Below, in pieces: positions 52,205 through 64,000 of a DNA stretch of 64,000 nt. This DNA is from Pseudomonas corrugata. Its GTDB lineage: Bacteria; Pseudomonadota; Gammaproteobacteria; Pseudomonadales; Pseudomonadaceae. The first letter of the stretch is position 1, and each line of letters starts with the position of its first letter. Made by a program: the position numbers and the translations under genes. The notes beneath the pieces were generated by a model, which was not told where the DNA came from, ran no database searches, and saw only the letters and a list, made by a program, of their open reading frames with translations. The stretch spans positions 124,397 to 188,396 of the forward strand of contig NZ_LHVK01000014.1 of assembly GCF_001269905.1 (NCBI RefSeq), in the 5' to 3' direction.

Positions 52205-53569
52205 TCAGCCTAGAAGATCGCGCAATACCTGGGTGAACGCCCGGGCGCTTTGCTCTTCTGCGGCGTGATGCCCGTTACGCACCACCCACTTGCCGCCCAC
52301 CATGACATCCCGCACCTGGCGATCACCGCCGGCAAACAGCCAGCGATTGAGGATGCCGTCGCCCTGGGCCGTGGCCAGGTAAGGGTCGTTACCGTCGAGT
52401 ACCAGCCAGTCGGCACGCTTGCCGATTTCTAGGGCGCCGATGGGTTGCCCCAATGCCTGGGCGCCACCGTCCAGCGCCGCATCGAACAGCGTGCGCCCGA
52501 CCATCGGCTGATCTGCCCGATACAGACGGTTACGCCGTTGATCCCGCAGACGCTGGCCGTATTCCAGCCAACGCAGTTCTTCCACCACGCTCAATGACAC
52601 ATGGCTGTCGGAACCGATACCCAGGCGCCCGCCTTGGGCGAGGTAATCCACTGCCGGGAAAATACCGTCACCCAGGTTGGCTTCGGTGGTCAGGCACAGG
52701 CCGGCAATCGCCTGGCTCCTGGCCATGAGGCTGACTTCATGGGCATTGGCGTGGGTGGCGTGGACCAGGCACCAGCGCTGATCCACCTCGGTGTTTTCAT
52801 ACAACCATTGCAGCGGACGGGCACCGCTCCAGCTCAGGCAATCGTCGACTTCCTTCTGCTGCTCGGCGATGTGGATATGCACCGGGCAGTGAGCGTCGCT
52901 GGCGGCCAGTACCTCCTGGATCTGTCCGGGCGTGACGGCGCGCAGGGAGTGGAAACACAACCCCAGCGCCTGCAGCGGTTGACCGGCCAGGATCGGTTGC
53001 AGCCGTGACTGAAGCTTCAAGTAGTTCTCGGTGCTATTGATGAACCGACGCTGCCCGTCATTGGGCGCCTGGCCGCCAAAACCTGAATGGCTGTAGAGCA
53101 CCGGCAGCAGTGTCAGCCCGATGCCGGCAGTGCTGGCGGCGTGGCTGACGCACAAGGCCAGCTCCGCCGGGTTGGCGTAAGGTGTACCGTCGGTGTCGTG
53201 GTGTACGTAATGGAATTCGGCGACCGAGGTGTAACCGGCCTTGAGCATTTCGATGTACAGCTGTCGGGCAATGATGCCGAGTTGGTCGGGGCTGATTTTT
53301 CCGACCAGGCGGTACATCAGGTCGCGCCAGGTCCAGAAACTGTCGTTGGGATTGCCCGCCACTTCCGCCAGGCCGGCCATGGCCCGCTGGAACGCGTGGG
53401 AATGCAGGTTCGGCATACCCGGCAACAGCGGACCGTCCAGCCGCTCGGCGCCGTCTGCGTGGGAGCCGGCCTGGATATGGGTCAGGACACCTTGGGCGTC
53501 GACTTCAAGACGTACATCATTGGCCCATCCACTAGGCAACAGCGCGCGTTCGGCAAAGAAGGCGGACAT
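52205..53569 (-). CDS. hutF: Formimidoylglutamate deiminase HutF
   Basis: A 454-residue amidohydrolase that converts N-formimino-glutamate to N-formyl-glutamate and ammonia. The metal motif is NLHSHAFQRAMAG, with VHIHIAEQ and GLCLTTEANLGDGIFPA further on. Its presence implies the five-step histidine pathway through formylglutamate (HutG). It is divergent from hutC with an operator-like palindrome between. GAGG precedes ATG 53569. Confidence 0.96.
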   Translation of the reverse strand: MSAFFAERALLPSGWANDVRLEVDAQGVLTHIQAGSHADGAERLDGPLLPGMPNLHSHAFQRAMAGLAEVAGNPNDSFWTWRDLMYRLVGKISPDQLGIIARQLYIEMLKAGYTSVAEFHYVHHDTDGTPYANPAELALCVSHAASTAGIGLTLLPVLYSHSGFGGQAPNDGQRRFINSTENYLKLQSRLQPILAGQPLQALGLCFHSLRAVTPGQIQEVLAASDAHCPVHIHIAEQQKEVDDCLSWSGARPLQWLYENTEVDQRWCLVHATHANAHEVSLMARSQAIAGLCLTTEANLGDGIFPAVDYLAQGGRLGIGSDSHVSLSVVEELRWLEYGQRLRDQRRNRLYRADQPMVGRTLFDAALDGGAQALGQPIGALEIGKRADWLVLDGNDPYLATAQGDGILNRWLFAGGDRQVRDVMVGGKWVVRNGHHAAEEQSARAFTQVLRDLLG

Positions 53570-53591
53570 GGTTCAACCTCATCGTGCGTAA

Positions 53592-53610
53592 TTTGTATAT
53601 ACATATACAG
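53592..53610. promoter_or_regulatory. Candidate HutC operator between hutF and hutC
   Basis: TTTGTATATACATATACAG contains the perfect palindrome TGTATATACA (53594-53603) plus a further overlapping TATACA. It resembles the 14-bp palindrome before hutU, so HutC could control both divergent genes here. Confidence 0.65.
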
Positions 53611-53673
53611 ACGTTTGCCTGGCCGGTAAACTCCGGCAAGCTAGCAACCTTATCCGCAGAACAGGGAACCGCC

Positions 53674-54423
53674 GTGCCGACTCCGCCTGCCAAACCGCCG
53701 CTGGTCTCAAACCTGGGTGACAGTCCGGCACCCTTGTATGCCCGCGTCAAACAGATGATCACCCAGCAGATCGACAGTGGAAACTGGCCGCCGCATTACC
53801 GCGTGCCGTCGGAAAGCGAGCTGGTCAATCAGTTGGGCTTCAGCCGCATGACCATCAACCGTGCCCTGCGGGAAATGACCGCCGACGGCCTGTTGGTGCG
53901 CATGCAGGGCGTCGGCACGTTCGTCGCCGAACCCAAGAGCCAGTCCGCGCTGTTCGAAGTACACAACATTGCCGACGAGATCGCCTCTCGCGGCCATCGC
54001 CACACCTGCAAGGTCATCACCCTGGAAGAAGAGGCCGCAGGCTCCGAGCGCGCCCTGGCCCTGGACATGCGTGAAGGCCAGAAGGTGTTCCACTCGCTGA
54101 TCGTGCATTTCGAAAACGACATTCCGGTGCAGATCGAGGACCGCTTCGTCAACGCCTTGGTGGCGCCCGACTATCTCAAGCAGGACTTCACCCTGCAGAC
54201 GCCCTACGCCTATCTGAACCAGGTCGCGCCGCTGACCGAAGGCGAGCATGTGGTGGAAGCGATCCTCGCCGAGCCGAATGAATGCAAGTTGTTGCAGATC
54301 GAAAAGGGCGAACCGTGCCTGCTGATCCGCCGTCGTACCTGGTCCGGGCGTCAGCCTGTCACCGCCGCGCGGCTGATTCATCCGGGTTCCCGTCATAGTC
54401 TGGAAGGGCGATTTCATAAGTGA
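53674..54423 (+). CDS. hutC: Histidine utilization repressor HutC
   Basis: A 249-residue GntR-family regulator of the HutC subfamily. The winged helix-turn-helix (YRVPSESELVNQLGFSRMTI) lies near 40-75 and a UTRA effector domain follows; urocanate is the known effector of the family. The start was taken as GTG 53674 (after AGGGAA), since the family begins about 10 residues before SPAPLYARVKQMI; the frame stays open to 53584 through the operator. It overlaps hutD by 4 nt. Confidence 0.95.
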   Translation: MPTPPAKPPLVSNLGDSPAPLYARVKQMITQQIDSGNWPPHYRVPSESELVNQLGFSRMTINRALREMTADGLLVRMQGVGTFVAEPKSQSALFEVHNIADEIASRGHRHTCKVITLEEEAAGSERALALDMREGQKVFHSLIVHFENDIPVQIEDRFVNALVAPDYLKQDFTLQTPYAYLNQVAPLTEGEHVVEAILAEPNECKLLQIEKGEPCLLIRRRTWSGRQPVTAARLIHPGSRHSLEGRFHK

Positions 54424-54989
54424 GTGACTTGAAAGTTCTACGTGCGGTGGATTACCCGCGCATGCCATGGAAAAACGGCGGTGGCAGCACCGAGGAAATC
54501 ACCCGCGACGCCGGCACCGGCCTGGAAGGTTTCGGCTGGCGGCTGTCGATTGCCGATATCGGTGAGTCAGGCGGTTTTTCCACCTTTGCCGGTTACGAGC
54601 GCGTCATCAGCGTCTTGCAGGGCGATGGCATGAGCCTGACCGTCGATGGTCAGGTCACGCGGCCGTTGCATCCCCTGGACCCTTTCGCGTTCAGTGGTGA
54701 GAGCCACGTTCATTGCACGTTGCTGGGCGGACCGATTCGTGACTTCAACCTGATCTATTCGCCCCAGCGTTACCGGGCACGGTTACAGTGGCTGGCGGGC
54801 GAGCAGCGGTTTTTCAGTGAGGCGGGGACGGTGCTGGTGTTCAGTGCCGACCCGGAATTGAGTGTCAGGGTTGGCGACTTTACTGCCACGCTGGGCCTCT
54901 ATGACTGCCTGCAACTGGGCGGTAACACTCAACTGCTGGAAGTTGCCAGCCACGGCCAATGTTGCGTGATCGAGCTGACTGCTCACTAG
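54420..54989 (+). CDS. hutD: HutD family protein
   Basis: A 189-residue cupin-like protein starting MSDLKVLRAVDYPRMPWKNG. GGGSTEEITRD and GFGWRLSIADIGESGGFSTF are HutD marks. It is thought to set an upper limit on hut expression in P. fluorescens. The start codon is GTG and overlaps the hutC stop as GTGA. Confidence 0.94.
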   Translation: MSDLKVLRAVDYPRMPWKNGGGSTEEITRDAGTGLEGFGWRLSIADIGESGGFSTFAGYERVISVLQGDGMSLTVDGQVTRPLHPLDPFAFSGESHVHCTLLGGPIRDFNLIYSPQRYRARLQWLAGEQRFFSEAGTVLVFSADPELSVRVGDFTATLGLYDCLQLGGNTQLLEVASHGQCCVIELTAH

Positions 54990-55464: not shown

Positions 55465-57153
55465 GTGACCGACGCAACCCGCAAACCCGAAAAATACCGT
55501 GACGTTGAAATTCGCGCCCCTCGCGGTAATACGCTGACCGCCAAGAGCTGGCTGACTGAAGCACCGCTGCGCATGCTGATGAACAATCTCGACCCACAAG
55601 TGGCCGAGAATCCCAAGGAGCTGGTGGTCTACGGTGGCATCGGTCGCGCGGCGCGCAACTGGGAGTGCTATGACAAGATCGTCGAAAGCCTCACGAACCT
55701 GAACGACGACGAAACCCTGCTGGTGCAATCCGGCAAGCCGGTGGGCGTGTTCAAGACCCACACAAATGCCCCACGCGTACTGATCGCCAACTCCAACCTG
55801 GTACCTCACTGGGCCAGTTGGGAGCACTTCAACGAGCTCGATGCCAAGGGCCTGGCGATGTATGGCCAGATGACCGCCGGCAGCTGGATCTACATCGGCA
55901 GCCAGGGCATCGTGCAGGGTACCTATGAAACCTTCGTCGAAGCCGGTCGCCAGCATTACGACTCCAACCTCAAGGGCCGCTGGGTCCTGACCGCTGGCCT
56001 GGGCGGCATGGGTGGCGCACAACCGTTGGCTGCCACACTGGCCGGCGCCTGCTCGCTGAACATCGAATGCCAGCAGGTCAGTATCGATTTCCGTCTCAAG
56101 ACCCGTTACGTCGACGAGCAGGCCACCGACCTGGATGACGCCCTGGCCCGTATCGAGAAATACACCGCCGAAGGCAAGGCAATCTCCATTGCACTGTGCG
56201 GGAACGCCGCTGAAATCCTGCCGGAAATGGTCCGTCGCGGTGTGCGTCCGGACATGGTCACCGACCAGACCAGCGCCCACGACCCGCTCAACGGTTACCT
56301 GCCGGCTGGCTGGACCTGGGACGAGTACCGTGCCCGCGCCAAGACCGAACCCGCCGCCGTGGTGAAAGCCGCCAAGCAATCGATGGCGGTGCACGTGAAA
56401 GCCATGCTGGCCTTCCAGAAAATGGGCGTGCCGACCTTCGACTACGGCAACAACATCCGTCAGATGGCCCAGGAAGAAGGCGTCGAGAATGCCTTCGACT
56501 TCCCAGGCTTCGTGCCGGCGTATATCCGTCCGCTGTTTTGCCGCGGCATCGGTCCGTTCCGCTGGGCCGCGCTGTCGGGTGACCCGCAGGACATCTACAA
56601 GACCGACGCCAAGGTCAAGGAACTGATCCCAGACGACGCCCACCTGCACAACTGGCTGGACATGGCTCGCGAGCGCATCAGCTTCCAGGGTCTGCCGGCA
56701 CGCATCTGCTGGGTCGGCCTGGGCCAACGTGCCAAGCTGGGCCTGGCGTTCAACGAAATGGTGCGCAGCGGAGAGCTGTCGGCACCGATCGTGATTGGCC
56801 GCGATCACCTGGACTCCGGTTCCGTGTCCAGCCCCAACCGTGAAACCGAATCCATGCAGGACGGTTCCGACGCGGTCTCCGACTGGCCGTTGCTCAACGC
56901 CTTGCTCAACACCGCCAGCGGCGCGACCTGGGTGTCTCTGCACCACGGTGGCGGCGTCGGCATGGGCTTCTCCCAGCACTCGGGCATGGTCATTGTCTGC
57001 GATGGTACCGATGAGGCGGCCGAGCGAATCGCTCGCGTACTGCACAACGACCCGGGCACCGGGGTGATGCGTCATGCCGATGCCGGTTACCAGATTGCGA
57101 TCGACTGCGCCAAGGAACAGGGCCTGAACTTGCCGATGATTACCGGCAAGTAA
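55465..57153 (+). CDS. hutU: Urocanate hydratase HutU
   Basis: A 562-residue NAD-dependent enzyme, second step of histidine breakdown (urocanate to imidazolonepropionate). It shows [26 protein letters not shown]-type [13 protein letters not shown] and [15 protein letters not shown], all family marks. Start is GTG 55465 with GAGGAG upstream. First gene of the hut catabolic transcript. Confidence 0.97.
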
Positions 57154-57318: not shown

Positions 57319-58785
57319 ATGGCCGTCAGTAGCACACGTGCAAGCAGTAAGCCGTTGATCGAGAGACGCTCGATCGACTACATCCCGGAAGCTGAGAGAC
57401 ACGGTCGATTGTTGAGCCAGTTCACCCTCTGGATGGGGGCCAACCTGCAAATCACTGCCATTGTCACCGGTGCATTGGCGGTGGTGCTGGGCGGTGATGT
57501 GTTCTGGTCGTTGATCGGTCTGCTGATCGGCCAACTGCTCGGCGGTGGTGTCATGGCGTTGCATGCCGCGCAAGGACCCAAGCTTGGCCTGCCGCAGATG
57601 ATTTCCAGCCGGGTGCAGTTCGGTGTTTATGGCGCGGCCATCCCGATCGTGCTGGTGTGCCTGATGTACCTGGGTTTCACCGCGACGGGCACCGTGCTTT
57701 CCGGTCAGGCGCTGGGCCAGTTGTTTGGCGTCAGCGACAGTGTCGGCATCCTCATTTTCGCCAGTGTCATCGTGCTGGTCACGGTGCTCGGGTATCGGGT
57801 GATTCACTTCATTGGCCGCGTCGCCAGCATTATTGGTGTGATTGCCTTTGTTTACCTGTTCGCTCGCCTGATCAGCCAGACGGACGTTGGCGCACTCCTG
57901 CAAATCCGCCACTTCAGCTGGAGCAGCTTCCTGCTTGCGGTGTCGCTCGCGGCATCCTGGCAGATCGCCTTCGGCCCCTACGTGGCTGACTATTCGCGCT
58001 ACCTGCCGAGCAAGACGTCCTCGGTGAAAACCTTCTTTGCCGCAGGTGCCGGTTCGGTCATTGGCGCCCAGGTGGCGATGATCCTTGGCGTGTTTGCCGC
58101 CGCCTCGGCCAACGGGCAGTTCGCGGGTCACGAAGTGGCCTACATCGTTGGCCTGGGGGGCACTGGCGCCACCGCTGCGCTGCTGTATTTCAGCATCGCG
58201 TTCGGCAAGGTCACCATTTCCACGCTGAACTCCTACGGCAGCTTCATGTGCATTGCCACCATCATCAGCGGTTTCCGTGGCCAGTTGAACGTAACGCGCT
58301 TGCAGCGTCTGCTCTTCGTGCTGGTCATTGTTGGCGCCGCGACGCTGATCGCGCTGCTCGGCCAGCACTCGTTCCTCGGTGCGTTCAAGTCTTTCATCCT
58401 GTTCCTGCTGGCGTTCTTTACGCCTTGGAGCGCGATCAACCTGGTGGACTACTACTGCATCACTCGCGAGCGCTACGACGTGCCGGCACTGGCTGATCCG
58501 AACGGTCGCTACGGTCGTTGGAACGCCCTGGGTATCAGCATCTATACGCTGGGTGTACTGGTTCAATTGCCGTTCATTTCCACCAAGTTCTATACCGGGC
58601 CGCTGGTGGCAGCGATGGGGGATGTGGATATCTCGTGGATCATCGGCCTGGTGGTACCGGCGGCGTTGTATTACGTCGCGGCGAAGAAGTGGCACAGCGC
58701 TGTACCCGATCAATTGATCCTGCCAGTCGAGCAGGACGCGGTTGACGCACAACCGAGCAGGGCGGGCCGCATCCAAGCGGTCTGA
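57319..58785 (+). CDS. NCS1-family (cytosine/purine-type) permease in the hut cluster
   Basis: A 488-residue membrane transporter with about twelve segments. It resembles purine-cytosine permeases (FTLWMGANLQITAIVTGALA; SFILFLLAFFTPWSAINLVD). Its position between hutU and hutXWV suggests uptake of urocanate, histidine or another imidazole; that is inference from context. ATG 57319 follows AGAGG. Confidence 0.88.
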   Translation: MAVSSTRASSKPLIERRSIDYIPEAERHGRLLSQFTLWMGANLQITAIVTGALAVVLGGDVFWSLIGLLIGQLLGGGVMALHAAQGPKLGLPQMISSRVQFGVYGAAIPIVLVCLMYLGFTATGTVLSGQALGQLFGVSDSVGILIFASVIVLVTVLGYRVIHFIGRVASIIGVIAFVYLFARLISQTDVGALLQIRHFSWSSFLLAVSLAASWQIAFGPYVADYSRYLPSKTSSVKTFFAAGAGSVIGAQVAMILGVFAAASANGQFAGHEVAYIVGLGGTGATAALLYFSIAFGKVTISTLNSYGSFMCIATIISGFRGQLNVTRLQRLLFVLVIVGAATLIALLGQHSFLGAFKSFILFLLAFFTPWSAINLVDYYCITRERYDVPALADPNGRYGRWNALGISIYTLGVLVQLPFISTKFYTGPLVAAMGDVDISWIIGLVVPAALYYVAAKKWHSAVPDQLILPVEQDAVDAQPSRAGRIQAV

Positions 58786-58854: not shown

Positions 58855-59823
58855 ATGAAATCGAACAAGACCCTGCTGACCACGTTGCTTTCCATGGGCC
58901 TGCTGGCCAGCGCCGGCGCCACCCAGGCGGCGGGTTGGTGCGAGTCGGGCAAACCGGTGAAATTCGCCGGCCTGAACTGGGAAAGCGCCATGCTGCTGAC
59001 CGACGTCCTGCAAGTGGTGCTGGAAAAAGGCTACGACTGCAAGACCGATAGCCTGCCGGGCAACTCCATCACCATGGAAAACGCCCTGAGCAGCAACGAC
59101 ATCCAGGTGTTTGCCGAAGAGTGGGTCGGCCGCAGCGAGGTCTGGAACAAGGCCGAGAAGGCCGGAAAAGTGGTCGGCGTCGGTGCTCCGGTGGTCGGGG
59201 CCATCGAAGGCTGGTACGTGCCGCGCTACGTGATCGAAGGTGACGCCAAGCGCAAGCTGGAAGCCAAGGCCCCGGGCTTGAAGAACATCGCCGACCTGGG
59301 TCAGTACGCTGCCGTCTTCAAGGATCCGGAGGAACCGTCCAAGGGTCGTTTCTACAACTGCCCGGCCGGTTGGACCTGTGAGTTGGACAACAGCGAGATG
59401 CTGAAAAGCTATGGCCTGGAAAAGACCTACACCAACTTCCGCCCAGGTACCGGCCCGGCGCTGGATGCAGCAGTGTTGTCGAGCTACAAGCGTGGCGAGC
59501 CGATCCTGTTCTACTACTGGTCGCCAACCCCGTTGATGGGCCAGGTGGACCTGGTAAAACTGGAAGAAAAACCGGGCGTGGATAAAAGCGTGAGCATCAA
59601 GGTCGGCCTGTCCAAGACCTTCCACGACGAGGCCCCGGAGCTGGTGGCGGTGCTGGAAAAGGTCAACCTGCCTATCGATATCCTGAACCAGAACCTCGGG
59701 CGCATGGCCAAAGAGCGGATCGAGTCGCCGAAACTGGCGAAGATCTTCCTGAAGGAACATCCTGAAGTCTGGCACGCCTGGGTAAGCGCAGACGCTGCCA
59801 AGAAAATCGACGCGGCTCTGTAG
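58855..59823 (+). CDS. hutX: ABC transporter substrate-binding protein HutX
   Basis: A 322-residue periplasmic receptor with signal peptide MKSNKTLLTTLLSMGLLASA (cleavage near TQA-AG). It is of the OpuAC glycine-betaine/proline type (VKFAGLNWESAMLLTDVLQV) but in this context is the histidine receptor HutX. Cys pairs (WCESGK, YDCKTD; NCPAGWTCELD) may form disulfides. Followed by a 12-bp hairpin and then hutW. Confidence 0.9.
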   Translation: MKSNKTLLTTLLSMGLLASAGATQAAGWCESGKPVKFAGLNWESAMLLTDVLQVVLEKGYDCKTDSLPGNSITMENALSSNDIQVFAEEWVGRSEVWNKAEKAGKVVGVGAPVVGAIEGWYVPRYVIEGDAKRKLEAKAPGLKNIADLGQYAAVFKDPEEPSKGRFYNCPAGWTCELDNSEMLKSYGLEKTYTNFRPGTGPALDAAVLSSYKRGEPILFYYWSPTPLMGQVDLVKLEEKPGVDKSVSIKVGLSKTFHDEAPELVAVLEKVNLPIDILNQNLGRMAKERIESPKLAKIFLKEHPEVWHAWVSADAAKKIDAAL

Positions 59824-59894: not shown

Positions 59895-60746
59895 ATGTTT
59901 CCCGAAAGCTTTACCTTTTCCATCGCCGACTGGGTCAACGGTTGGGTCGACTCCCTGGTGACCAACTATGGCGATGTGTTCCGGCACATCTCCGATACGT
60001 TGCTGTGGGCCATCGTCAACCTCGAAAGCCTGCTGCGCATGGCGCCCTGGTGGCTGATGCTGGCCATCGTCGGCGGCGTCGCCTGGCACGCCACCCGCAA
60101 GGTCATGGCCACGGCGGTGATCGTCGGTCTGCTGTTTCTGGTGGGCGCGGTGGGCCTGTGGGACAAACTGATGCAGACCCTCGCACTCATGCTGGTAGCA
60201 ACGCTGATATCGGTATTGATCGGCATCCCGCTGGGTATTCTCTCGGCACGCAGCAATCGCCTGCGTTCGGTGCTGATGCCGTTGCTGGACATCATGCAGA
60301 CCATGCCGAGCTTCGTGTACCTGATTCCGGTGTTGATGCTGTTCGGCCTGGGCAAGGTCCCGGCGATCTTCGCCACTGTGATCTATGCCGCGCCGCCGCT
60401 GATTCGCCTGACCGATCTGGGCATCCGCCAGGTAGACGGCGAAGTGATGGAAGCCATCAATGCCTTTGGTGCCAACCGCTGGCAGCAGCTGTTCGGCGTG
60501 CAACTGCCCCTGGCCCTGCCAAGCATCATGGCCGGGATCAACCAGACCACCATGATGGCCCTGTCGATGGTAGTCATCGCCTCGATGATCGGCGCCCGTG
60601 GCTTGGGTGAGGACGTGCTGGTGGGTATCCAGACCCTCAACGTCGGACGCGGCCTGGAAGCCGGGCTGGCGATCGTGATTCTCGCCGTGGTCATCGACCG
60701 CATTACCCAGGCCTATGGTCGTCCTCGGCATGAGGTGAGCAAATGA
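59895..60746 (+). CDS. hutW: ABC transporter permease HutW
   Basis: A 283-residue inner-membrane permease of the ProW/OpuAB type with about six segments and the EAA loop [20 protein letters not shown]. It carries substrate from HutX and overlaps hutV by 4 nt (ATGA). The single permease gene implies a homodimer. Confidence 0.93.
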
Positions 60747-61573
60747 GCAACGCAGCTATCAGCAAAATCGAAGTCAAGAACGTCTTCAAGATTTTCGGCA
60801 ATCGGTCCAAGGATGCCCTGGACCTGATCCGCCAGAACAAGACCAAGGACCAGGTGCTGGCCGAAACCGGTTGCGTGGTCGGTGTGAATGACCTGTCGCT
60901 GAGCATCGGTACCGGCGAGATATTCGTGATCATGGGGCTGTCCGGTTCCGGCAAATCCACCCTGGTGCGGCATTTCAACCGCCTGATCGACCCCACCAGC
61001 GGCGCGATCCTGGTGGACGGCGAAGACATCCTGCAACTGGACATGGACGCCCTGCGTGAATTCCGCCGGCACAAGATCAGCATGGTGTTCCAGAGCTTCG
61101 GCCTGCTGCCCCACAAGAGCGTGCTGGACAACGTCGCCTACGGCTTGAAGGTCCGCGGCGAGAGCAAGCAGGTGTGCACCGAGCGCGCGTTGCACTGGAT
61201 CAACACCGTGGGCCTGAAGGGCTACGAAAACAAATACCCGCACCAGCTTTCCGGCGGCATGCGCCAGCGTGTGGGCCTGGCCCGTGCCTTGGCGGCGGAT
61301 ACCGACATCATCCTGATGGACGAGGCCTTCAGTGCCCTCGACCCGCTGATCCGCGCAGAAATGCAGGACCAGTTGCTGGAACTGCAGAAGACCCTGCACA
61401 AGACCATCGTCTTCATCACCCACGACCTCGACGAGGCCGTGCGCATCGGCAACCGCATCGCGATTCTCAAGGACGGCAAGCTGATCCAGGTCGGCACGCC
61501 CCGGGAGATCCTGCATTCGCCGGCCGATGAGTATGTCGATCGGTTCGTGCAGCGGCGGGCGGCGGTGGTGTAG
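60743..61573 (+). CDS. hutV: ABC transporter ATP-binding protein HutV
   Basis: A 276-residue ATPase of the ProV/OpuAA type, without the C-terminal CBS domains of osmoregulatory members. Walker [10 protein letters not shown], signature LSGGMRQR and Walker [13 protein letters not shown] are visible. The lack of CBS domains fits a nutrient importer and not an osmolyte one. Confidence 0.94.
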
Positions 61574-61591: not shown

Positions 61592-61680
61592 TCTGTGGGA
61601 GCAAAGCTTGCTCGCGATACAGGCACCTCGGTTCCAGAGAGAGCGCATTGGATTCATCGCGGGCAAGCCTTGCTCCCACG
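61592..61680. repeat. REP/REPIN pair between hutV and the hutH-like gene
   Basis: CTGTGGGAGCAAAGCTTGCTC and GCGGGCAAGCCTTGCTCCCAC face each other. The AAAGCTT core matches the variant at 23981-24073. Confidence 0.88.
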
Positions 61681-61737
61681 GATAATCCCGCTGCGGCTCA
61701 AGGGTATTGGCAACTTAATATGTGTATGAGGCTTTAG

Positions 61738-63261
61738 ATGTCCCAGGCTGAAAAAATCATCATCGCCGACGCCCCCCTGCGTTGGCAGGACGTGGTCGCC
61801 GTCGCCCGCTTCGGTGCCGAGCTCGAGCTTTCGGCCCAGGCCTGGGCGCGGATCGACAATGCCCAGGCCATCGTGCAGCGCATCGTCGAAAGCGGCGAGC
61901 GCGCCTATGGCGTCAACACTGGCCTGGGGGCCTTGTGCAATGTGTCGCTCAAGGATGAACAACTCAGTCAGTTGTCGCGCAACACCCTGCTCAGCCACGC
62001 CTGTGGCGTGGGGGCGCCGCTGGCGGATGAACAGACCCGGGCGATTCTCTGCGCCGCCATCCTCAACTACAGCCAGGGCAAGTCCGGCATTCATCGTCGG
62101 GTGGTCGAAGCCTTGCTGGCGCTGCTCAATCGCGGCATCACCCCACAAGTGCCGTCTCAGGGGTCGGTGGGTTACCTGACCCACATGGCTCACATCAGCA
62201 TTGCGCTGCTGGGTGTCGGCCAGGTCAGCTATCGCGGCCAGATCGTAGCGGCGCAACAGGCCATGGCCGCAGAAGGCTTGCAACCGGTTCAATTGGGGGC
62301 AAAGGACGGCCTATGCCTGGTCAACGGCACGCCATGCATGACCGGCCTCAGTTGCCTGGCCCTGGCGGATGCGACGCGGCTGGTGCAATGGGCGGACGTG
62401 ATCGGTGCCATGAGCTTCGAGGGCCAGCGTGGACAGATCGCCGCGTTCGACGCCGAGATCATCGCTCTCAAACCGCACCCGGGCATGCAACAGGTCGGGG
62501 CCAACCTGCGCGCCTTGCTCGATGGCAGCGAAGTCATTGCCTCGAGTCTGGGCATTCGCACCCAGGATGCCTTGAGCATCCGTTCTATTCCCCAGGTCCA
62601 TGGCGCCGCTCGTGATCAGTTGGCGCACGCGCGTCAGCAGATCGAAACCGAACTCAATGCCGCCACCGACAACCCGCTGTTGCTGGGGACGCCGGATAGC
62701 TTCCGGGTCATGTCCCAGGCCAACCCCCACGGCCAGTCGGTGGCTTTGGCGGCGGATCTGCTGGCGATTGCCATGGCGGAGATCGGCTCCATCGCCGAGC
62801 GCCGTCTCGACCGATTGATCAACCCGCATGTCAGCGGGCTGCCGGCCTTTCTGGTGGCCAACCCCGGCGTGAACTCGGGGATGATGATCGTGCAGTACGT
62901 CGCCGCCTCCTTGTGCGCGGAGAATCGCCAGTTGGCGCAACCGGCGGTGCTGGATAATTACGTGACCTCGGGCTTGCAGGAAGATCACTTGAGCCTGGGC
63001 ACCAACGCGGCCCTGAAGCTGCACAGGGTGTTGGAAAACTGCACGCAGATTCTCGCCATCGAATACCTGCTGGCGGCCCAGGCCTTTGAATTCCTCAAGT
63101 CGCAGCGCTTTGGCGCCGGTACCGGGCATGCCTGGAAACTGCTGCGCGAACACGTGGCTGCCTATGACCAGGACCGCTGGCTGGCGCCGGACATAGCCAG
63201 CACCGCCGGGCTCCTTAAAGACCCGAACCTGTTGCACAGCGTGTTACCGAATTTGAATTGA
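61738..63261 (+). CDS. HAL/PAL-family ammonia-lyase homolog lacking the MIO triad (HutH2-like)
   Basis: A 507-residue protein with the histidase fold. Kept from active histidases are Tyr57 (YGVNTG), His87 (LSHACGVG), Asn196 (LVNGT), Arg282 and the Glu of LQEDHLSLG. The Ala-Ser-Gly that forms the MIO electrophile is missing: GSVG142-145 is followed directly by YLTHMAHIS, a 3-residue deletion relative to [16 protein letters not shown] in the next gene. The catalytic Tyr280 equivalent is Leu279 (QDALSIR). It may be a non-lyase, a different enzyme, or a regulatory partner of HutH. It lies 164 nt after hutV and 132 nt before hutH. Confidence 0.9.
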   Translation: MSQAEKIIIADAPLRWQDVVAVARFGAELELSAQAWARIDNAQAIVQRIVESGERAYGVNTGLGALCNVSLKDEQLSQLSRNTLLSHACGVGAPLADEQTRAILCAAILNYSQGKSGIHRRVVEALLALLNRGITPQVPSQGSVGYLTHMAHISIALLGVGQVSYRGQIVAAQQAMAAEGLQPVQLGAKDGLCLVNGTPCMTGLSCLALADATRLVQWADVIGAMSFEGQRGQIAAFDAEIIALKPHPGMQQVGANLRALLDGSEVIASSLGIRTQDALSIRSIPQVHGAARDQLAHARQQIETELNAATDNPLLLGTPDSFRVMSQANPHGQSVALAADLLAIAMAEIGSIAERRLDRLINPHVSGLPAFLVANPGVNSGMMIVQYVAASLCAENRQLAQPAVLDNYVTSGLQEDHLSLGTNAALKLHRVLENCTQILAIEYLLAAQAFEFLKSQRFGAGTGHAWKLLREHVAAYDQDRWLAPDIASTAGLLKDPNLLHSVLPNLN

Positions 63262-63393: not shown

Positions 63394-64000
63394 ATGACTG
63401 CCTTAAACCTGATTCCCGGTCAATTGAGCCTGGCTCAATTGCGCGACATCTATCAGCAACCGGTGACCCTGAGCCTCGACGCCAGCGCTTCGGCACAAAT
63501 CGAAGCCAGCGTGGCGTGCGTGGAGCAGATCCTCGCCGAGAACCGCACCGCCTACGGCATCAACACCGGTTTCGGTCTGCTGGCCTCGACCCGTATCGCC
63601 AGCGAAGACCTGGAAAACCTGCAGCGCTCCCTGGTGCTGTCCCATGCCGCTGGCGTGGGCGAGCCGATCAGCGATGCGCTGGTGCGCTTGATCATGGTGC
63701 TCAAGGTCAACAGCCTGAGCCGGGGTTTTTCCGGCATTCGCCGGCAAGTGATCGATGCGCTGATCGCGCTGGTCAATGCCGAGGTCTATCCGCACATCCC
63801 GCTCAAGGGCTCGGTCGGTGCTTCCGGCGACCTGGCACCGTTGGCCCATATGTCCCTGGTGCTGCTGGGCGAAGGCAAGGCACGCTACAAAGGTGAATGG
63901 CTGCCGGCGGTCGACGCGTTGAAAGTCGCCGGCCTCGTGCCGCTGACCCTGGCCGCCAAAGAGGGCTTGGCGCTGCTCAATGGCACCCAGGTGTCTACTG
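63394..64000 (+). CDS. hutH: Histidine ammonia-lyase HutH, cut by right edge
   Basis: The first 202 residues of histidase, the enzyme that turns histidine into urocanate. The MIO triad is intact ([12 protein letters not shown], Ala143-Ser144-Gly145), with Tyr54 (YGINTGFG), His84 and Asn196 (LLNGTQVST). AAAAGGAG stands just before ATG 63394. The C-terminal two thirds and the genes hutI, hutG and others expected next are outside the window. Confidence 0.97.

Follow-up and report, generated by a model that had tools for sequence, protein, structure and literature searches.

In histidases, the MIO cofactor turns the amino group of the substrate into a leaving group; trimethylammonium leaves unaided, as it does in ergothionase. 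The HutXWV system of S. meliloti reportedly imports histidine, proline and betaines. Passages of two articles describe ergothionase as an enzyme of the HAL family that lacks MIO and frees trimethylamine from ergothioneine (PMC13405746, PMC7653990). In passages of a review, hutH1 of P. fluorescens SBW25 appears as a histidase gene that is dispensable on histidine, with mention neither of a missing MIO nor of a substrate, and hutTu of the same strain is termed a urocanate transporter (PMC8871633). The gene analyzed here is almost certainly the same gene, judged by its name, its place in the operon and the description in that review, and we call it hutH1 throughout. It lies in a 64,000-nucleotide window of Pseudomonas corrugata (contig NZ_LHVK01000014.1; the window is the whole stretch of DNA that we analyzed). 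Like the known histidine/betaine transporter, HutXWV is encoded there by three genes, which stand upstream of hutH1, and the genes follow the order hutF (on the minus strand), hutC, hutD, hutU, NCS1-type permease, HutX, HutW, HutV, HutH1 and hutH2:

52205-53569, minus strand: hutF, formimidoylglutamate deiminase, 56% identical to the annotated S. meliloti hutF (L044)
53584-54423, plus strand: hutC regulator, about 50-62% to hutC-annotated or hutC-matched genes beside rhizobial HutH1
54420-54989, plus strand: hutD, resembling hutD-like genes of other hut loci
55465-57153, plus strand: hutU, true urocanase (TIGR01228, 1026.2 bits; cut-off 375)
57319-58785, plus strand: NCS1-type permease, HutT (TIGR00800 match below cut-off)
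58855-59823, plus strand: HutX, ProX-type substrate-binding protein of the betaine family (NCBIfam ProX and choline-binding matches, below cut-offs)
59895-60746, plus strand: HutW, betaine-type ABC permease (TIGR03416 and ProW matches, below cut-off)
60743-61573, plus strand: HutV, betaine-type ABC ATPase (TIGR01186 proV, 368.8 bits; cut-off 326.6)
61738-63261, plus strand: HutH1, HutH paralog without MIO, 507 aa from an ATG start, predicted MIO-independent histidine-betaine lyase
62161-62190, plus strand: MIO-loop region of HutH1, residues 142-151 (GSVGYLTHMA), where Tyr146 replaces the cofactor triad (from sequence and alignment)
63394-64000, plus strand: hutH2, canonical MIO-type hutH with the ASG triad, truncated by the window end and whole in L002

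Eleven REP-like elements, several of them arranged as facing pairs, were detected at 16219-57189 of the window, where none would be expected by chance. A further inverted REP-like pair, recognized by eye and not listed by the scan, occupies approximately 61597-61681 between hutV and hutH1.

The hutH1 reading frame is intact and unbroken over its 507 residues. An initial annotation had described a full-length gene next to a normal hutH in which the MIO-forming Ala-Ser-Gly is missing and the catalytic Tyr is replaced, and both the reading frame and our alignment agree with this description. Alignment with hutH2 showed that the canonical pattern GSVG-ASGD-L is shortened to GSVG-Y-L (GSVG-YLTHMAH in HutH1), a deletion that can be written equally well as loss of ASG with Asp to Tyr or as loss of SGD with Ala to Tyr, and that Leu279 occupies the position of the catalytic Tyr280 of canonical HutH. 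Each of the pocket residues listed there as kept (Tyr57, His87, Asn196, Arg282 and Glu415 of the QEDH motif) was recovered by alignment. Two additional changes had escaped that description, namely Pro330 at the position of Phe329 and His149 where the canonical loop has Pro. Judged by the features of MIO-dependent histidases, HutH1 has the HAL/PAL/TAL fold and the sequence similarity but lacks the ASG triad and Tyr280, which supports the earlier view that the classical MIO mechanism is closed to it.

An alignment of homologs, the check suggested in the initial annotation, showed that the loop Tyr and the gap are conserved. Among 148 HutH-type sequences, 69 were MIO-less with Tyr, 77 were canonical and 2 were neither; the Tyr and the gap belong to the rule by which the loops were sorted, whereas the changes at Tyr280, Phe329 and the loop Pro are independent of it. 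The Tyr280 position holds Leu in 68 of the 69 MIO-less sequences and Met in one, as against Tyr in 77/77 canonical ones. At the Phe329 position, Pro (52), Ala (15) and Cys (2) replace the Phe that is present in all 77 canonical sequences, and the loop Pro has become His in 69/69. Across the same 69 sequences, the equivalents of Tyr53, His83, Asn195, Arg283 and Glu414 (P. putida numbering), which we take to be the imidazole and carboxylate contacts, persist. HutH1-like proteins with at least 58% identity were encoded in 59 of 79 genus genomes (its own included; the loop was read in the fetched loci), and dN/dS between HutH1 and ten orthologs was 0.05-0.14, indicating that HutH1 is under purifying selection. 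A decaying gene or a deletion unique to this strain, the outcome that the initial annotation had held open against its own idea, is ruled out by this distribution, by the loop conservation and by the low dN/dS.

Beyond Pseudomonas, members of the MIO-less family were found in rhizobia, other proteobacteria, Peribacillus, Paenibacillus, Sulfobacillus and Polaromonas, as well as on Erwinia, Rhizobium, S. meliloti and Priestia plasmids. Their spread is patchy: class-wide profile searches recovered the form in 8 of 289 genomes of the class to which G184 belongs and, in the class of the P. corrugata genome, in that genome alone among 274. A whole canonical hutH accompanied HutH1 in 24 of 26 genomes, as judged by identity. 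Paenibacillus eucommiae carries HutH1 and no canonical hutH at the search threshold, and in Polaromonas sp. P2-4, which has HutH1, the canonical gene is fragmented. In two genomes (G034:C1:1367682-1369213 and G948:C1:3802216-3803689) canonical hutH lies in two to three pieces while HutH1 is whole, possibly through sequencing error. Four of seven tested MIO-less proteins scored above the cut-off of the NCBIfam hutH equivalog model TIGR01225, which explains why such genes are named histidine ammonia-lyase.

The AlphaFold model of HutH1 (pLDDT 91.2, pTM 0.92) matched HAL 7tqr (Z 47.2), P. putida HAL 1b8f (45.4) and T. denticola ergothionase 6s7j (44.9). With HutH (EC 4.3.1.3), HutH1 shares the fold, and it also shares about 40% identity, a place in the hut operon and the equivalents of Tyr53, His83, Asn195, Arg283 and Glu414, but it is without Ala-Ser-Gly, Tyr280 and Phe329. 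With the T. denticola ergothionase it has in common the HAL fold, the absent MIO triad, Leu in place of Tyr280 and, as proposed below, the expulsion of trimethylamine. The two differ in that the ergothionase loop is one residue short (GEG-D in T. denticola, GCA-D in others) as opposed to the three residues missing from HutH1, that their identity in the structural alignment is 29% (25-26% for rhizobial ergothionases), and that ergothionase pairs with thiourocanate hydratase whereas HutH1 pairs with urocanase. Likely ergothionases, with the GCA-D loop and Leu for Tyr280, lie beside thiourocanate hydratase in 4 of the 5 genomes having that gene.

Phylogenetic trees were calculated with the loop and two other changed stretches excluded. 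In the first tree (66 rows, with the long-branched ergothionases, L046, L047 and L003 included), the MIO-less rows appeared as a proteobacterial and a Bacillota group. Once the long rows were removed, a branch supported at 100/98.6 set all MIO-less sequences of the resulting 60-row tree apart from the rest, and a 36-row tree that included ergothionases gave the MIO-less branch support of 87/96. A joint clade of HutH1 and ergothionase was absent from the best 36-row tree but was not rejected (p-AU 0.234). These trees make a single MIO-less family appear likelier than two origins within HutH. If MIO was lost separately from ergothionase, cofactor-free elimination would have evolved twice in the HAL fold.

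Three further HAL-like genes drew our attention. L046:8998-10494 has a loop one residue short (GSIGAA-D) and lies after hutC and before a glycine-betaine-type binding protein; L047:8956-10530, also one residue short (GSVGQA-D), has an annotated DMSP lyase gene in its vicinity. The third HAL-family gene of the P. corrugata genome (G000:C6:274075-275451, L003) is 35% identical to HutH1 and keeps ASG intact.

The gene neighborhood supplies what we regard as the most telling evidence, namely betaine-type transporters and a urocanase partner, neither of which had figured in the initial annotation. We surveyed marker genes within 8.5 kb at 49 HutH1 loci. Betaine-type transporters (ProXWV, OpuC/OsmF or BCCT) were located at 31 of these, with 23 of 26 loci in the Pseudomonas group, where operons are related by descent and are not independent observations. 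The 23 loci outside that group divided into 8 with a betaine-type transporter, 8 with an opine-type ABC system and 7 with neither. Over all 49 loci, opine-type ABC systems accounted for 10 more, leaving 8 with neither type (L063, L068, L193, L194, L200, L045, L082 and L105, the last with an Opp-type system). By comparison, a betaine-type transporter was present at 3 of 72 canonical hutH loci, a control set of different taxonomy with a flank below 12 kb in 24 of the 72; one of the three is a BCCT gene that also lies beside HutH1 of G128. The betaine carriers near HutH1 come from unrelated families. ProXWV-type carriers precede HutH1 in Pseudomonas and S. meliloti; an OsmF/OpuC-type carrier, whose binding protein most resembles choline-like sensors, ProX and EgtUC, stands just upstream in two Paenibacillus; and a BCCT carrier lies just upstream in G128 (PF02028, E 9e-117), with others at G041 and G063. 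More generally, OpuC-type binding proteins near MIO-less genes resemble EgtUC, and the opine-type binding protein of Erwinia has binders of octopine and nopaline as its nearest relatives. As for HutX of the window, its solved relatives are glycine-betaine and choline binders, and its Trp residues 42, 90, 97, 120, 173, 222, 306 and 309 are invariant across 14 relatives.

Any hut marker was in reach at 40 of the 49 loci, hutU at 31 and none at 9, and in some hut operons hutH1 is the sole hutH in reach (L064, L065, L083 and L084). Eight neighboring HutU proteins (those of the window, L045, L064, L067, L083, L084, L105 and L242) were identified as urocanases, all of them under the thiourocanate hydratase cut-off; the window HutU scored 687.9 against NF058530, for which the cut-off is 930. 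The P. corrugata genome contains no thiourocanate hydratase above cut-off. From its sequence, the window HutU is predicted to consume the product of HutH1. The transporter-HutH1 unit of the rhizobial loci L043 and L066 has no hut marker other than hutC nearby, as would be expected if HutH1 produces urocanate, which parts of two articles give as the inducer of HutC (PMC8871633, PMC12772324).

Within the genus, HutX follows HutH1. Orthologs of HutX (at least 78% identity) were present in 56 of 79 genomes, namely 55 of the 59 that encode HutH1 and just one of the 20 that do not (Fisher p 2e-13, a value that ignores shared descent), and HutX was absent from 12/12 genomes having a canonical hutH but no HutH1. 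Among the four HutH1 genomes without HutX, two (G041 and G063) have a BCCT carrier in its stead, and the permease gene is still present in the other two (G023 and G051). At L223 of G043, hutC adjoins HutX and the permease, and the genome yielded no hutH at E 1e-40.

HutH1 is thus a member of a conserved HutH branch that lacks MIO, and its sequence and surroundings make it most likely a hercynine lyase. We propose, with a probability of roughly 0.57, that it acts as a cofactor-independent lyase that converts hercynine (N-alpha-trimethyl-L-histidine, or histidine betaine) to urocanate and trimethylamine. By analogy, the best reading is that it would work like ergothionase, which need not make it one. 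Hercynine would be imported by HutXWV just upstream, a system that we suggest serves above all hercynine uptake, in distinction from its known role, and elsewhere by an ABC system of the OpuC/OsmF or opine type or by a BCCT carrier. With the help of a putative catalytic base, HutH1 would then abstract the beta-proton and expel trimethylamine, and the resulting urocanate would pass to glutamate by the ordinary HutU-HutI-HutF-HutG route and also induce HutC. Without MIO, and with Leu at the Tyr280 position and Pro, Ala or Cys at that of Phe329, the pocket, as read from the alignment, may have room for the trimethylammonium at its amine end. In our proposal, MIO could be given up because the substrate brings its own good leaving group, and since the product must suit urocanase, the substrate would lack the sulfur of ergothioneine, which points to hercynine. 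Of the ideas in the initial annotation, that of another reaction with an imidazole substrate accordingly fits best.

Several observations count against hercynine. Only 8 of the 23 loci outside the Pseudomonas group have a betaine-type transporter; of all 49 loci, 8 have neither transporter type and 9 have no hut marker; G043 has HutX without hutH, and in G023 and G051 the permease was found without HutX; and the form on Klebsiella plasmids, described below, lacks both Asn196 and His149. EgtU, whose binding protein is related to the OpuC-type ones found here, shows only weak binding of hercynine according to part of one study (PMC9732360). The review passages cited above treat HutXWV as a histidine importer (PMC8871633). 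In addition, part of one article lists PA5093 as hutG and reports that its deletion slows growth on histidine (PMC12772324); by the gene order of PA7 (L125), in which it adjoins hutI on that side, PA5093 may be HutH1, and slower growth of the deletion on histidine would then speak against the hercynine reading.

A lyase that acts without MIO on a histidine with some other N-alpha substituent (an opine of histidine, for example, or mono- or dimethylhistidine) would likewise yield urocanate, so that the urocanase partner fits it equally well; the opine-binding-type transporters at 10 of 49 loci, with the Erwinia binder closest to octopine and nopaline proteins, also favor it. Secondary amines are, however, poor leaving groups without MIO on general chemical grounds, and BCCT, ProX and OpuC/OsmF systems are understood to carry mainly quaternary ammonium or sulfonium compounds, and we regard this possibility as unlikely. 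Ergothioneine itself is disfavored as the substrate. The shared MIO-less fold, the same Tyr to Leu change, the unrejected joint clade (p-AU 0.234) and the likeness of nearby OpuC-type binders to EgtUC would suit an ergothionase, but no thiourocanate hydratase in the P. corrugata genome reaches the cut-off, all eight HutU proteins tested are urocanases, the loops differ (one residue lost as opposed to three), and three rhizobial genomes pair thiourocanate hydratase with an ergothionase-like gene while HutH1 lies on another contig. An ergothionase is hence very improbable.

HutH1 could also be a histidase, or a D-histidine lyase, that operates without MIO. Its location in hut operons, where it is the sole hutH in reach at L064, L065, L083 and L084, agrees with such a role, as do P. 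eucommiae, with no other hutH at threshold, and Polaromonas sp. P2-4, with a broken copy. Amine departure, however, is understood to need MIO in known histidases, 24 of 26 HutH1 genomes also have a whole canonical hutH, and the SBW25 gene is dispensable on histidine according to the review passages (PMC8871633), all of which makes this reading quite improbable. The initial annotation had further considered that HutH1 modulates HutH through mixed tetramers, and a catalytically dead partner would be consistent with an unusable MIO site and with the canonical hutH that it adjoins in many Pseudomonas. Against this stand the transporter of its own that it often has at a distance from canonical hutH, the many invariant pocket residues, the one genome (P. 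eucommiae) in which no canonical partner was found and the fragmented copy of Polaromonas sp. P2-4; we consider a dead modulator the least probable of these explanations.

If the hercynine reading holds, hutH1, reportedly dispensable on histidine in SBW25, would acquire a function and the adjacent HutXWV a natural substrate, and hercynine from fungi and soil would become a further source of trimethylamine. It would also illustrate that a fold can dispense with a protein-derived cofactor once the substrate offers a good leaving group. We see about even odds that a hercynine module, consisting of a transporter and an MIO-independent trimethylammonia-lyase that feeds urocanase, is widespread in Pseudomonas, rhizobia, some Bacillota and Klebsiella plasmids under the annotation 'histidine ammonia-lyase'. 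Our search of the open-access literature, outside which most subscription papers lie so that absence is unproven, returned no hercynine lyase, no MIO-less lyase of this kind and no link of HutXWV with betaine.

The Klebsiella plasmid members were found later and stand outside the 69 sequences; their loop was read in two plasmid records. The cluster is as follows:

Klebsiella OW849148.1, 461-10334 (L242): plasmid hut cluster with MIO-less hutH

The plasmid protein is 41% identical to HutH1 and retains Tyr146 and Leu279, with Gly at the Phe329 position, Asn196 to Gly and His149 to Ala. Its gene directly follows an OsmV/OpuB/OpuC-type ABC transporter, with a divergent hutU and with hutD, hutC and hutF nearby. 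Of 72,556 plasmid records, 203 contained near-identical DNA: 191 from Klebsiella, 10 from Raoultella and 2 from Escherichia. Most of the gene is present in 163 of these 203. Among 5,426 E. coli genomes, two contained such DNA.
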